From the NCBI GenBank assembly GCA_013214355.1, contig JABSSL010000027.1:1-61272 (forward strand): a stretch of 61,272 nt of DNA, read 5' to 3'. Positions 6,090 to 11,694 of this stretch are shown piece after piece. A program made the position numbers and the translations under genes. The notes under the pieces were generated by a model. The model made no database searches. It was not told the origin of the DNA and saw nothing but the letters and a program-made list of their open reading frames with translations. The first letter of the stretch is position 1; each line of letters starts with the position of its first letter. This DNA comes from Saprospiraceae bacterium. Lineage in GTDB: Bacteria > Bacteroidota > Bacteroidia > Chitinophagales > Saprospiraceae.

Positions 6090-7889
6090 TTATCCGTTTA
6101 CTATTTTTTTCCAGTAGGCACTAGGTGTCATGCCCATGGATTTCTTGAAGAAGGTATTGAAAACCGTTTTGGAATTAAAGCCGCTATCAAAGGCCAAAGC
6201 CAAGATCGTGAGGTGGCGTAAGGCAGGGGTTTGGGCTCTTTCTTTAAAAGCCAGGAGCCTATAACTATTGACGAATTCGGAGAAATTTTGATCAAAGCCT
6301 TCATTCAGCAGTTGCGAAAGCTGATTGGGGGGCATATTCATTCGCTCCGCCAGGGCCCGCAAGGTTAAAGCCGGATCAAGGTAGGGTTCTTGGGCCTTCA
6401 TCAACTGCTCCAATTGCTCTTTGTGTTGCTCCACTAGGCTTGGATCCAACAGTGACTTTTTGTATTTGCGCTTTTGAAAGTCAAAGGAAGGCTTATCTCC
6501 CAATATCTGCCGCATCACAGTTTGGAAACGGGCTTCTTTATGTAGGGGCTTCAACATGGGTTCCACATAAAAATAGACAATCAGGGGCAGGTGGAACTGT
6601 ACTGCTTTTTCTAGCCAGTCCAAGGCCTGGTCAAACTTCCCTAAGGCGGTATAGCAATGGATCAAATGGTAAATCGCGCGCTCTTTTAGGGGAGAATCTA
6701 AGGCATCTTGAATGATCGATAAGTAGTGCTCTGCCTCTTTTGTTTTGCCCAGGGCGGCATAGGCCATCACCAAGCCAGCTTCCCGATTTAGATCTCCTTC
6801 CAAATGGGCTGGGAGCTGATCGAAATACCTAAGCGCCTCCTGGGTTTTTCCCGTTAAAAGGAAAACCTGTCCTTTATAGAGTACAGACACTTTGGCATCT
6901 GCTTTCAACTTCCAGACTTCCTCAAAGTCCGCCAAGGCTTCTGCATAGTTTCCCTGACAATATTGGGTAAACCCCCTCAGATGATAATTGATCGAAGAAA
7001 AAGGGTCTATTTTTATGGCCTGTTGAATATAATGCATCGCCGCCTCGTAATTACCTTCAGCTACAATGATGGACGTAAAAGTCTGATAAATATCCACCAT
7101 CGGGCGTATCTCCAGTGCTTGGTGTAAATGCTGGTATGAGGCTGGTAAATCCCAGTGGAGCAGGAAGCTATCAAAGGCCATATGCAACTGACACTCTGCT
7201 AAGTTAGGATCCAGCGCAATCGCTTGGCTCAAGAACTCCTTTCCTTTAATAAAGCTTTCCTCAGCAGGCATGAGCCCCATAGTCCCCATTAAAGTATACC
7301 CAAGATGCATTCCAAGATATACCAATGGCGAGGTGCCCCCTTGTTGGATGACCTCCTCTAGGATAGCCAGTCCACTCTGAATATCTGAGGTACTCATTTT
7401 GAGCAAATGGTACCTAGCCTTGAGATATTGTTGATATTGTTCAACGGAGAGATTGGGTTGCTTTACTAACTGATCTTTTAATTCAAAGTGCCCAAGGTGT
7501 TCTCGCAGCCGATCAGCAATCAATAGACTAATCTCATCCTGTGCTGCAAAAATATCGTCTAAATCGCGATCAAACTTTTCAGACCAGAATGGATAGTCTT
7601 CGGCCACATCAATCAGTTGGGCGCTGATTCTCATCTTTTGAGCAGAGAGCCTTACGCTACCTTCCAGAATTGCCGATACTCCCAATTGCTCGCCGATCTG
7701 TTTCAAGGGAAGTTCTTTGCCTTTAAATAAGAAAGAAGAAGTTCTGGACGTTACTCTTATACCTTGAACCTTCGAAAGCGCATTGATAATCTCCTCCGTC
7801 ATTCCATCGCTAAAGTATTCATGTTCCCCCCCTTTACTTCGATTGACGAAGGGAAGTACAGCAATAGATTTAGTTACTGGTCTCTGCAT
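6090..7889 (-). CDS. AraC-type regulator with TolB/FlgO-like N-terminus and TPR sensor
   Basis: This 599-aa cytosolic regulator has three parts. Residues ~5-125 form the adenylate-cyclase-associated/FlgO-like module (SIAVLPFVNRS, YFSDGMTEEIINALSK, GVSAILEGSVRLS, FWSEKFDRDLDDIFAAQDEI). Residues ~150-470 hold TPR repeats (for example ASYQHLHQALEI, EAMHYIQQAIKIDP-like segments). Residues ~495-597 form a DNA-binding AraC domain with two HTH motifs (LRALAERMNMPPNQLSQLLNEGF; ILALAFDSGFNSKTVFNTFFKK...GMTPSAYW). No membrane helix is seen. It lies 106 bp downstream of a TPR histidine kinase on the same strand and may act with it. The ligand of the TPR region is unknown. Confidence 0.87.
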   Translation of the reverse strand: MQRPVTKSIAVLPFVNRSKGGEHEYFSDGMTEEIINALSKVQGIRVTSRTSSFLFKGKELPLKQIGEQLGVSAILEGSVRLSAQKMRISAQLIDVAEDYPFWSEKFDRDLDDIFAAQDEISLLIADRLREHLGHFELKDQLVKQPNLSVEQYQQYLKARYHLLKMSTSDIQSGLAILEEVIQQGGTSPLVYLGMHLGYTLMGTMGLMPAEESFIKGKEFLSQAIALDPNLAECQLHMAFDSFLLHWDLPASYQHLHQALEIRPMVDIYQTFTSIIVAEGNYEAAMHYIQQAIKIDPFSSINYHLRGFTQYCQGNYAEALADFEEVWKLKADAKVSVLYKGQVFLLTGKTQEALRYFDQLPAHLEGDLNREAGLVMAYAALGKTKEAEHYLSIIQDALDSPLKERAIYHLIHCYTALGKFDQALDWLEKAVQFHLPLIVYFYVEPMLKPLHKEARFQTVMRQILGDKPSFDFQKRKYKKSLLDPSLVEQHKEQLEQLMKAQEPYLDPALTLRALAERMNMPPNQLSQLLNEGFDQNFSEFVNSYRLLAFKERAQTPALRHLTILALAFDSGFNSKTVFNTFFKKSMGMTPSAYWKKIVNG

Positions 7890-7995: not shown

Positions 7996-9921
7996 CTACT
8001 TCATTTGGATCTCCATAATAGGGATCTGGATTTCAACTCGGGTTCCTTGAGCTTCACCTGTCGCAGGATCCTTTAAATCAATTATCTCAACAAATAATTC
8101 CTCCTTGGAATTATGTAGGATACTAAGCCGTTCTTCAGTAATCCGCGTCCCTTTAGATCGGTGGTTTTGGAACTGTGGATCCTCCATTTTTAATTGCGCA
8201 GCCTTCTCTCGACCAATGCCATTGTCCTCCACCACACACAGGATGGTTTCCTCATCCTCCTCCCCGGAGAAAGAGAAAGTCACCGTTAACGTACCATTTT
8301 CTCTACTACGGAGTCCGTGCTCAATAGCATTTTCCACATAAGGCTGGACAATCATCGTCGGTACCCCCAGAATATCCTCTTCAATTTCGTCATCTACGAT
8401 GATTTTGTAATTGAGCTTTTCCTGAAACCGTAATTTCTCGTTGATGTAGAGGTAATTTTCCAAGAAATCAATCTCCTTTTCCAGAGAAATGATCTCCAAA
8501 TCGGAATGATCTAAACTCTGGCGCATCAGCGTCGCAAACTTGGCTAGGTATTTAGCAGCAGATGAGACGTCATTTGAGGTAATGAAGTGCTGTATGGAGT
8601 TCAAGGCATTGTACATAAAGTGCGGGTTCATCTGTGCCCGCAAAGCCTTGAGTTGAAGTTTTGTAGCCTGAAGTCGAAGCAACTCCGTCTCCTGCTTTTT
8701 CTTATCTGCCTCGTATTGAACTTCCAATTCCATCTGTTGCCGCTTATTCACTTCCTCGGAATACTGCTCTGCAAACTTATCGTGCAGCAGCTGATATTCA
8801 TAGGCATTTTTGAAGTCCTCCAATTCCGCATAAAAGGCAGCCATGTCTTTGCAGACGATGGCCATCTGCCGGGAATCTTCTGTCAGACTCGCATTTTCAT
8901 AGGCCAGTGCAAAGTGCGCGAGCGCCAAGTCCGGTTCATCAATTTCACTATACAGCCGACCTCGCCAGGATTCAATAATGGAGAAGTTGTAATAATCTTC
9001 CTCTGAGTTTTCCTTATAAAGCGACTCCGCGCGATCAAAGAGTTCCAGCGCTTCCGTATACATCTCTCGATCGAAATAACAGTAACCCAGGTTGGCATAG
9101 GCTCCCGCCCGAGCATTAGGACTGTTGTCGTCCGTAACCTCAATAGCTTTTTGAAAATAAGCTTCAGCGTTTTCCTGTTCATCCATGGCCATATAGCCAT
9201 TACCTACATTCAAGTAGTGCCAGGATAGACGAGAGCGCATTGGCATGGACTCACAGATCTCAATTACACGCAAATAGGCGCGTACACTTTTGGGGTACTC
9301 ATCATTGCGTTCATAGACACGTCCTAGACCACTATGAATAAGGGTAAGGAAGTATCGATCCTTTAAAGCTAAGGGTGGATCCAAGCGCTGAATGGTCTTT
9401 TCGGCATTGAGCAGGAGTTCAATTGCTTTAGAATAATTCTTGTAGTGTAGGTTCATAAACCCTTCTCTACAAGTCATGTAGGCGCTCAGGCGTTGATCGG
9501 GAAAGTTCTTGAGGAGTTTTGATGCCTTATCCAGCTTCTCAGCGGCCTCTTCGAGGCGCTCCAAGTTCATCAGTGTTCCCGCGTAATCAATAAAGGTCTC
9601 CGCTAGTTGTTTGACGGTTCCTCTTTCCTCGAGAATATCAATGGCGGCCAGGAAGTGCTGCTCCGCAGTATCAAAATGGTATAGCTGATTATCTAGATTA
9701 GCTCGATTGAGCTCATAGTTTAACTTAAAATCAGGGTAATCGTGGGTTTGGAAAATAACGGTTTGTTCTTCCAACAGCTCAGTAGCACGCTTGATATTAG
9801 TGAAGGTGTAGCAGTCAGTCATCTTATCGATGAGTAGGAGGCGCTGCATGGGGTCCTTCTGCTGGCTCAGTTTCAGCTCGTACTGCTGATTGATCACCAC
9901 GTTGGGTAGTGTCGTTATCAT
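7996..9921 (-). CDS. Soluble TPR-containing LytS-type sensor histidine kinase
   Basis: This 641-aa protein consists of TPR repeats over roughly residues 1-380 (e.g. SWHYLNVGNGYMAMDEQENAEAYFQKAIEV), a coiled coil (~385-425, EVNKRQQMELEVQYEADKKKQETELLRLQ), and a LytS-family kinase. The kinase has the phospho-acceptor box LRAQMNPHFMYNALNSIQHF, then an ATPase domain with N-box VQPYVENAIEHGL and G-box VVEDNGIGR. I see no transmembrane helix or signal peptide, so the signal must be sensed inside the cell. Its natural partner is the LytTR regulator at 10933-11694. Between them sits the GG-leader peptide gene. Confidence 0.92.
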   Translation of the reverse strand: MITTLPNVVINQQYELKLSQQKDPMQRLLLIDKMTDCYTFTNIKRATELLEEQTVIFQTHDYPDFKLNYELNRANLDNQLYHFDTAEQHFLAAIDILEERGTVKQLAETFIDYAGTLMNLERLEEAAEKLDKASKLLKNFPDQRLSAYMTCREGFMNLHYKNYSKAIELLLNAEKTIQRLDPPLALKDRYFLTLIHSGLGRVYERNDEYPKSVRAYLRVIEICESMPMRSRLSWHYLNVGNGYMAMDEQENAEAYFQKAIEVTDDNSPNARAGAYANLGYCYFDREMYTEALELFDRAESLYKENSEEDYYNFSIIESWRGRLYSEIDEPDLALAHFALAYENASLTEDSRQMAIVCKDMAAFYAELEDFKNAYEYQLLHDKFAEQYSEEVNKRQQMELEVQYEADKKKQETELLRLQATKLQLKALRAQMNPHFMYNALNSIQHFITSNDVSSAAKYLAKFATLMRQSLDHSDLEIISLEKEIDFLENYLYINEKLRFQEKLNYKIIVDDEIEEDILGVPTMIVQPYVENAIEHGLRSRENGTLTVTFSFSGEEDEETILCVVEDNGIGREKAAQLKMEDPQFQNHRSKGTRITEERLSILHNSKEELFVEIIDLKDPATGEAQGTRVEIQIPIMEIQMK

Positions 9922-10293
9922 AATTTCCAGGTTAACTTTATCCTAGCGTAAAAATCCCCCCTTCAAAATTGGTTGGGCTTGCTCTTGATAGGCAAGCCAT
10001 TAGTTTGTACGGCAGAGAAAAATTTTGGTTTCCCTGGTCCTTAGTAGTTTCCTTGAATAAATATGATAATCGGTCTGTAGGGCAGTCACCACGGGGCAAG
10101 ATGATCCAGTGTAGTCAGAATAGATCATCCCTTTCACCAAAGGAGCTACAGGGCTTAAACGTGCCACTGCCTAGCTTCAATAATGCGCTTTAGTGGGTTT
10201 TGCCTAAGATAGTGGAGTTTTGATTATTTGACAACTCCCAGATTAGGGAGTTAGGATTATAAGTAGATGTTACTCTATAATTGTTAGTATTGT
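9922..10293. other. Intergenic stretch between kinase and GG-peptide gene
   Basis: About 370 bases. A plus-strand open frame (9969-10193) shows no recognisable features and is probably spurious. A perfect 7-bp hairpin (AACTCCC 10233-10239 / GGGAGTT 10246-10252) lies just downstream of the peptide gene on the minus strand; without a T-run it is at most a weak terminator or an mRNA stability element. Confidence 0.4.
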
Positions 10294-10440
10294 TTATTGC
10301 GGAACAATGCCTCCACAACCATTATTCCATTTGTTTTTCTTCTTGTCGTTTTTCCCTCCGACAATCTTTTTCATGTCCTTTTTCTGCAAGGTTTTAAGGT
10401 CCTTTTTGAGATCGTCCAGACTTTTTTTCGGTTTTCCCAT
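10294..10440 (-). CDS. 48-aa double-glycine-leader peptide precursor
   Basis: This small frame starts with ATG at 10438-10440 and stops with TAA at 10294-10296. The N-terminal part is a charged amphipathic leader (MGKPKKSLDDLKKDLKTL then QKKDMKKIVGG) ending in a Gly-Gly, the cleavage signature of peptides exported by C39-peptidase ABC transporters. The predicted mature peptide is ~19 residues: a basic stretch KNDKKKNK followed by WNNGCGGIVPQ with one cysteine. Bacteroidota natural-product/bacteriocin-type precursors share this leader style. The gene lies between a LytTR response regulator and a TPR histidine kinase, all minus strand, which suggests a signalling peptide. No exporter is seen in the window. 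The peptide could instead be a bacteriocin or a modified-peptide precursor. Confidence 0.72.
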   Translation of the reverse strand: MGKPKKSLDDLKKDLKTLQKKDMKKIVGGKNDKKKNKWNNGCGGIVPQ

Positions 10441-10932
10441 AGTCTCTAATTTAGTATATCGCGGGATGAAATAGTATTATACTTGCGACTCACTTCATTG
10501 AAGTAAAAGTACAAAATTATTTAAAAGCACAAAAGAATGTAATAGCAAATGAAGGATTATTGCTTAGTACTGGTTCAGACCGAACCCTAGCATGACGTGG
10601 AGAACACAACAGACTGATTATTAACTATATACCACAAAATATTATCAGTCAACTAATAACATATAATAAAACAATTAGTTCTGTTTCCACACCACTTCTT
10701 CCTCCGGAAAGACTAACACGACAACTAAAAGTAAAACATATGGTATTTAGAAATATGTACGCATTAATCTTAAAAAGGTTGCCCTAAATTCCAATAAAAA
10801 TTAATTAAAATCCTCCGTAAATGTAATACTGGAAATGTCTTATAGCCCTTGCTTTCCATGACGGTTAAACAAGGGAAATCTAACGTTTCAAGCTACAAAA
10901 GGTCGCCGTTTTCCTTCAATGATTTCTGTATA
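10441..10932. other. Long AT-rich leader/intergenic region upstream of GG-peptide gene
   Basis: Nearly 500 bases between the peptide gene and the response regulator gene. Besides the candidate promoter near 10503-10519 I find no gene, terminator or repeat. The length suggests that the peptide gene has its own promoter rather than being read only from the regulator gene. Confidence 0.45.
10512..10519 (-). promoter_or_regulatory. Candidate -7 element of the GG-peptide gene
   Basis: On the minus strand the sequence is TAATTTTG, an exact match to the Bacteroidota -7 consensus TAnnTTTG, 72 bp before the start codon. It is directly followed by GTACTTTTAC, a 10-mer that also occurs before the LytTR regulator gene. 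The -33 TTG at ideal spacing is not obvious. Confidence 0.4.
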
Positions 10933-11694
10933 TTATAAGCCTTCCTGGAGTCTTCTCATTTGCTCCATAAAGGCGGGGCGTCTTCTTCGGCTAACTTCGA
11001 TCTTGATGTCGTCATCCATGACTAAATATCCTCCATCTCCTTTCACGAATTTGCGCATGAAATTGAGATTGATGACATGTCGTTTATGAACTCTGTAGAA
11101 ATTAAAGGGCGCTAAAAGGTCTTCGTAAGATTTTATCGTTTTGGAGGCTGTGATTCGCTCTCCACTATTGAGATATATGTGTGTATAATTATCCTCTGCT
11201 TCAAATCGTACAATATCTTTGATATTGACGAAATAGATACCATCGAGGGCCGAGATACTCATCTTGGTAAACGCATTGGGATTGCTGTAGTGATGATTGA
11301 ACAATTCATAGCGTTTGTCCATTTCACTCTCCTTCCGGGGCCGGATCCTAGAAACTGCCTCTACCAATAAATCTACGTCGATCGGCTTGATGATGTATCC
11401 GATAGAACTGTACTCGCATGCCTTGATTGCATAATCATGGTAAGCGGTAACAAATATAACTTCGAATTTGATGGGTCGTAACTGATTCAGTAATTTAAAT
11501 ACCAAACCGTCTGGCAAGCTGATATCAAGAAATGCTACGTCTGGCTTGACATCGTTGTCGCTTAGTAGTTTTTTGCCTTCTTCAATTGTTCGAGCTTCTC
11601 CTACGAGCTCAATGTTGTCGCAATGTTTGGCTAAGAGGGTTTTTAAGTTGTTTAAACCATTCAACTCATCTTCAACAATAACTGCTTTTAGCAC
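10933..11694 (-). CDS. LytTR-family response regulator
   Basis: This 253-aa protein has a receiver domain (1-~120) with the acidic pocket E8-D9, phospho-acceptor D57 (VAFLDISLPDG), T83 and K103 (IIKPID). A LytTR DNA-binding domain follows (~145-250: SALDGIYFVNIKDIVRFEAEDNYTHIYL, FYRVHKRHVINLNFMRKF). It is the expected partner of a LytS-type kinase; the nearest is encoded at 7996-9921 on the same strand, with the GG-peptide gene in between. Such regulators bind paired direct repeats. The 10-mer GTACTTTTAC occurs upstream of both this gene and the peptide gene. Confidence 0.94.
   Translation of the reverse strand: MLKAVIVEDELNGLNNLKTLLAKHCDNIELVGEARTIEEGKKLLSDNDVKPDVAFLDISLPDGLVFKLLNQLRPIKFEVIFVTAYHDYAIKACEYSSIGYIIKPIDVDLLVEAVSRIRPRKESEMDKRYELFNHHYSNPNAFTKMSISALDGIYFVNIKDIVRFEAEDNYTHIYLNSGERITASKTIKSYEDLLAPFNFYRVHKRHVINLNFMRKFVKGDGGYLVMDDDIKIEVSRRRRPAFMEQMRRLQEGL

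Follow-up and report, generated by a model that had tools for sequence, protein, structure and literature searches.

Does a short open frame lodged between the genes of a LytTR response regulator and a LytS-type histidine kinase encode a signal peptide and, if so, where would that peptide be read? The frame lies in a 61,272-nucleotide stretch of DNA from a Saprospiraceae bacterium (the whole stretch is called the window here), which corresponds to contig C145 of an 11.19-Mb genome in 224 contigs. Double-glycine (GG) peptides associated with two-component systems are known as a form of Gram-positive communication, and the receptors of GG pheromones in Firmicutes, streptococci among them, are polytopic membrane kinases; GG leaders and C39 exporters, for their part, most often serve bacteriocins. 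A sequence-only reading of the window had proposed that the frame is a GG-leader peptide gene attached to exactly the class of two-component system found at Firmicutes GG-pheromone loci. The features that bear on this proposal are the following.

10294..10440, minus strand: GG-leader peptide gene, 48 aa (tblastn, profile search, codon changes)
10354..10440, minus strand: double-glycine leader, residues 1-29, ending IVGG (pattern examined over 88 distinct sequences)
10297..10329, minus strand: C-terminal tail WNNGCGGIVPQ, anchored at the stop codon and proposed as the ligand (alignment; tail end kept in leaderless forms)
10933..11694, minus strand: receiver-LytTR response regulator (Pfam; linkage)
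7996..9921, minus strand: TPR-LytS-type histidine kinase, soluble, 641 aa, proposed receptor (Pfam, hydropathy, AlphaFold model)
8824..9906, minus strand: 18-helix TPR superhelix formed by kinase residues 6-366 (AlphaFold; Foldseek)
10503..10521, minus strand: promoter-like conserved block AATAATTTTGTACTTTTAC with a TAnnTTTG element at 10512-10519 (10-sequence alignment)
10232..10253, minus strand: stable hairpin after the peptide gene, without a U-run; terminator role uncertain

The peptide gene, its leader and its tail

On re-reading of the sequence, the frame, its coordinates, its GG site and both neighbours were as the sequence-only reading had described them. The frame opens with an ATG at 10440, closes with a stop codon ending at 10294, and encodes MGKPKKSLDDLKKDLKTLQKKDMKKIVGGKNDKKKNKWNNGCGGIVPQ. 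It is present as a single copy in its genome, one further match (E=1.04) lying within a 941-aa frame. In a tblastn search of 60 genomes, matches were found in 14 at E<=1e-4 and in 25 at E<=1, the window's own genome included in both counts, while a fragmentary congener, G003 (80% complete), gave none. With a profile of 14 sequences, the peptide was detected at E<=1e-5 in 110 of the 298 family members and at E<=0.1 in 130. The peptide is conserved in one family: the named relatives are Saprospiraceae, with labels over 30 loci that include Saprospiraceae, Lewinella, Phaeodactylibacter, Flavilitoribacter and similar ones, and the gene is present in the named strains Flavilitoribacter nigricans DSM 23189 and Phaeodactylibacter xiamenensis KD52. 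A search across the phylum (40-sequence profile, 395 genomes) returned nine genomes at E<=0.01, three of them of the same family, including the window's own; the nine matches in the six other genomes, all of which were translated, are GG-leader peptides from which the conserved tail is absent.

That the frame might be open merely by chance is suggested by its shortness and by the lack of any curated family model that recognizes it at its cut-off. Codon changes and synteny nevertheless lead to the rejection of this explanation, whose probability is negligible. Changes are mostly synonymous, with a pooled pS of 0.665 and a pN of 0.062 over 81 pairs of equal length and more than 75% identity (pairs that are not independent of one another); for several listed pairs dS is saturated and dN is 0.02-0.06. 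The gene is moreover present in more than a hundred genomes, at a conserved position. The sequence-only reading had named failing conservation, frameshifts and missing linkage as grounds for abandoning it; what was found instead is a conserved frame and GG site, linked to the two-component genes.

The leader was characterized over 88 distinct sequences, counted after the weak-match loci L051 and L052 had been dropped; since these sequences were collected with a profile, the search itself partly selects for leader and tail. GG is present in all 88, hydrophobic residues occupy positions -4, -7, -12 and -15 in 97, 92, 99 and 86%, respectively, and position -8 is acidic in 88%; median lengths are 30 residues for the leader and 18 for the core. 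Judged by sequence, the leader is of the kind cut by C39 exporters, the window peptide having GG at -2/-1 and hydrophobic residues at all four positions. The nearest curated models, which describe RiPP and bacteriocin leaders, are not reached at their cut-offs. The window peptide scores 15.6 bits against 15.7 with TIGR01847 (bacteriocin-type leader), a miss of 0.1 bit, and 19 bits, or 18 in the genome search, against 25 with TIGR04149 (GG_sam_targ_CFB), membership of which is rejected; no NCBIfam model is reached at its cut-off, and Pfam gave no match at E<=1. When 40 members were searched, leader models were the commonest matches, with TIGR04149, for example, in 16 of the 40 at E<=0.1.

The tail has the consensus WNxGCGGI[VLI]PQ and is anchored at the stop codon. 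PQ forms the final two residues in 76 of the 88 sequences, the penultimate residue is P in 86, and the sixth from the end is G in 79. The cysteine in the WNxGCGG motif of the sequence-only reading is not essential: the seventh residue from the end is C in 61 sequences only, and otherwise L (11), F (5), W (3) or others. A modified RiPP with an essential cysteine was considered and is unlikely, given the replacement of this residue in 27 of 88 sequences and the absence of a maturation enzyme among the 10 neighbours scanned.

When 10 upstream sequences are aligned, conservation is highest at AATAATTTTGTACTTTTAC, and the TAnnTTTG element is found in 48 of the 96 regions upstream of the gene, where Markov shuffles predict 18.2; the conserved block and the excess of the element suggest that the peptide gene probably has a promoter of its own. 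The stable hairpin that follows the gene has no U-run and is a doubtful terminator.

A two-component partner with a cytoplasmic sensor

The regulator lies upstream of the peptide and a TPR-His_kinase-HATPase protein downstream, all on the minus strand, and the identity of the pair is confirmed by matches over the Pfam cut-offs to His_kinase (PF06580) plus HATPase in one protein and receiver plus LytTR in the other. Linkage was examined in 96 loci, drawn from 95 of the 110 genomes that pass E<=1e-5 (the 15 left out are in many cases congeners of sampled ones), neighbours being accepted if they lay on the same strand, within 1 kb, with a model score >150. Regulator and kinase are both present in 69 loci, the regulator alone in 15, the kinase alone in 6, and neither in 6. 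Among the 88 untruncated loci, with at least 1.5 kb on either side, the sequence-only reading's suggested test of linkage comes out in its favour: the peptide stands between both genes in 67 and beside the regulator only in 11, the kinase only in 5, and neither in 5, so that at least one of the two adjoins it on the same strand in 83.

The reverse search, starting from the kinase, detected its TPR half in 143 of 298 genomes at E<=1e-20, of which 115 have a peptide match at E<=1e-3. In the other 28, reading of the stretch upstream of the kinase revealed a diverged GG peptide in 14 (G071, G084, G086, G097, G136, whose tail falls outside the signature, G146, G178, G180, G220, G240, G258, G283, G314 and G319), a shortened GG frame in one (G245), leaderless frames in six, and no recognizable peptide in seven (G013, G017, G030, G088, G156, G242 and G274). 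Among the last, G017 has, at another site in its genome, a copy next to a regulator, G030 has a copy elsewhere in its genome, and the G242 stretch runs into a contig edge.

Several observations concern the wider neighbourhood. A scan of 10 neighbours in the window found neither a maturation enzyme nor an exporter gene; the scan covers proteins with a common model, which immunity proteins do not have. Directly after the kinase gene, positions 6090-7889 (minus strand) encode a protein of 599 aa that combines TPRs with an AraC-type HTH at its C-terminus and was seen among the fetched loci in the same genus only. At locus L213 (G071), the space between regulator and kinase holds a tandem of two distinct GG peptides, and G035 has two strong copies (L047, L049), one beside a regulator and one beside neither gene.

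The kinase departs from the sequence-only reading's expectation that it would belong to exactly the Firmicutes class, as it has no membrane segment and begins with a TPR superhelix. Its maximal 19-residue hydropathy is 0.9, and a value above 1.6 is reached in one of 93 orthologues. The AlphaFold model (21 sequences; mean pLDDT 84, pTM 0.61) places an 18-helix TPR superhelix first, followed by a long helix and by a less certain kinase half. With this layout, the kinase cannot directly read a peptide outside the cell. Foldseek found designed TPRs and LGN complexes as the best solved structures for the TPR part, natural bacterial proteins among the top 50 being RapI, Rap with CSF, RapF, phage Rap and NprR; in the model, the likeness to Rap and NprR is generic to TPR superhelices and says nothing about peptide binding. 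For the kinase half, GanS was the natural bacterial protein among the top 50. With FimS (NF053520) the kinase scores 41.9 bits against a curated cut-off of 600 and is thus not a member. A read-through chain of L248, in which the peptide, a 74-residue linker (stops read as G or S) and the kinase were modelled as one, gave a tail pLDDT of 33-37 and no docking, a null that is weak evidence because the linker blocks the free C-terminus of the tail. In the window's genome, 78 matches to the LytS-type kinase were detected, all but a few over the kinase half only, which represents a large expansion of LytS-type kinases in one genome.

Exporters and leaderless relatives

The C39 exporter that the sequence-only reading had proposed seeking elsewhere in the genome has counterparts at three C39 loci. 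C172 encodes a 729-aa C39-ABC protein with an HlyD partner, and the C222 locus is similar. At C201 (L155:7656-9848, G000), a C39 frame of 161 aa lies beside an ABC exporter frame, with an HlyD gene after it; this exporter is possibly broken or naturally split. The 15-16 kb around each of the three loci contain no short frame with the leader pattern. Among 15 fetched genomes with a single C39 match, the C39 gene was nearest C172 in 13 (one of them a 187-aa fragment) and C222 in 2, and five hand-picked genes from genomes with two or three C39 matches were nearest C172 as well, which points to C172 as the candidate exporter of the peptide.

Across the family, PF03412 (C39) occurs in 180 of 298 genomes, and in raw counts that ignore kinship it is present in 108 of 110 peptide-bearing genomes versus 72 of 188 peptide-less ones. 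The two peptide-bearing genomes in which it was undetected, G209 and G251, may have assembly gaps, since their congeners have C39. The 143 genomes with the kinase divide into 135 with C39, of which about 129 have the GG form, and 8 without, of which 2 have it, the figure of 129 combining 113 profile matches, not each inspected, with 16 cases read by eye, including G245 and G017 and leaving the G030 copy uncounted.

The leaderless frames fall in two genera. In g26 (G028, G155, G226 and G272; 95-100% complete), no C39 was detected in any of the four genomes, and in all four a basic, Ser/Thr/Asn/Gly-rich frame of 40-50 aa, counted from an MRK start, lies directly upstream of the kinase and ends in TYCGVSTPQ, SYCGTTTPQ, TFCGMPTPQ or TYCGSPTPQ (CGxxTPQ). 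These frames have no GG-leader pattern, the GG dipeptide of G272 being inside a Gly/Ser stretch. In g101 (G104 and G193), where C39 is present, the frame between regulator and kinase has no GG and ends in KWNSRCGDLLPH. In G013 (87% complete, without C39), regulator and kinase nearly touch and no peptide lies between them. As the GG form tracks C39 and the leaderless forms keep the tail beside the kinase, the pattern across these genomes indicates that the leader goes with the exporter and the tail with the kinase. In the kinase tree (93 rows), the two leaderless genera are found on long branches and the deep forks are unsupported, so that the tree does not set the direction of the leader change.

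Signal, secreted product or gauge, and known systems

What stands of the sequence-only reading is a GG peptide conserved with a LytTR/TPR-kinase pair in a genome that has C39; the kinase class does not stand. With this amendment, we consider it moderately probable that the peptide is the cognate signal of the flanking two-component system and that its tail is the putative ligand of the cytoplasmic TPR sensor. According to this proposal, a C39 ABC exporter encoded elsewhere in the genome would cut after GG and export the peptide, and the tail, with its free C-terminal end, would bind the TPR superhelix of the kinase, altering its activity and, through it, the LytTR regulator. The tail could meet the kinase in the cytoplasm as an unexported pool, in which case the kinase would gauge synthesis versus export, or it could return into the cell in an RRNPP-like manner. 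There is a slight lean towards the unexported pool because leaderless lineages, one genus of them without detected C39, keep the tail by the kinase; to judge from these same relatives, the tail may be able to act intracellularly. Together with the uniformity of the tail, they favour reading inside the cell, or a signal in common, rather than pheromones specific to a strain. Several observations stand against the proposal: neither gene is adjacent to the peptide in 5 of 88 loci, no peptide was found in 7 of the 28 kinase loci read, the fragmentary congener G003 gave no match, the read-through chain showed no docking, the TPR likeness is generic, the C39 counts ignore kinship, and g101 lost the leader despite having C39.

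The main rival to the peptide as input is that it is a secreted product, bacteriocin- or RiPP-like, controlled by the pair while the kinase senses something else. The general use of GG leaders and C39 exporters for bacteriocins, the RiPP and bacteriocin leaders that are the nearest curated models, and the peptide's own promoter-like element would all suit a product; yet the conserved part is the tail rather than a toxic core, no maturation enzyme was found among the 10 neighbours scanned in the window, and it would be odd for leaderless forms without detected C39 to stay beside the kinase, which together make this explanation unlikely. A further alternative, a sub-case of the cognate-signal proposal and one that we regard as possible, if somewhat doubtful, is that of an intracellular regulator or export gauge, in which the precursor would bind kinase or regulator, removal by C39 would end the signal, and the peptide would never be an extracellular pheromone. 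It agrees with the existence of leaderless forms, with a cytoplasmic sensor, and with a tail that is near-uniform across the family, unlike fast-diverging pherotypes. The GG leader, however, is clearly constrained in most lineages and tracks C39, and therefore export and cutting matter in those lineages.

Set beside known systems, the cognate-signal proposal combines two known kinds, namely GG-peptide/LytTR systems and TPR-receptor peptide systems. With the streptococcal ComC-ComD-ComE and BlpC-BlpH-BlpR systems it has in common a GG peptide, a C39 exporter, a histidine kinase and a LytTR regulator; in those, a polytopic membrane kinase receives the peptide from outside, whereas here the kinase is soluble and carries a TPR superhelix, and no exporter gene is among the 10 scanned neighbours. 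RRNPP peptides bear an N-terminal export signal, while the peptide here bears a GG leader. As in RRNPP systems (Rap, NprR, PlcR, PrgX and Rgg; PMC10075063), a small peptide gene lies by a cytoplasmic TPR receptor, which in this case is joined to a LytS-type kinase and not to a Rap/NprR-type output, and which belongs to another phylum; the TPR part resembles Rap and NprR in fold, a likeness generic to such superhelices. TIGR04149 and other Bacteroidota GG-leader RiPP precursors share the GG leader, the window peptide differing in its score below the TIGR04149 cut-off, in the lack of a maturation enzyme among its 10 neighbours and in a cysteine that is not essential. The regulatory peptide PatS has the tail RGSGR. 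PatS and HetN of Nostoc, for which export by the C39 exporter HetC is suggested in PMC10986499, also represent regulatory peptides in a Gram-negative, with unrelated sequence and no kinase partner; the HetC substrate is not identified in that paper (2024), which considers it probable that in Gram-negatives these exporters do more than export toxins, but says that evidence for this is lacking. No prior description of such a system was found among the matches listed, a coverage mostly outside subscription journals and preprints. The nearest described case, in PMC10352776, is that of signalling genes near some Bacteroidales RiPP precursors, where BGC5 has a histidine kinase and a regulator near GG precursors and a signalling role is suggested. 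Tentatively, the present system can be viewed as a distinct Gram-negative peptide-signalling architecture, widespread in Saprospiraceae, in which a GG peptide would be handled by C39 while a soluble LytS-type kinase would use its TPR superhelix to read the free tail in the cytoplasm; in some lineages leader and exporter are absent, yet tail and kinase stay together. If true, peptide signalling of this form would be unusual among these bacteria, and named strains offer a candidate system in which peptide, receptor and regulator are defined and an exporter is proposed, and the natural leaderless lineages of which make action inside the cell versus between cells directly testable.
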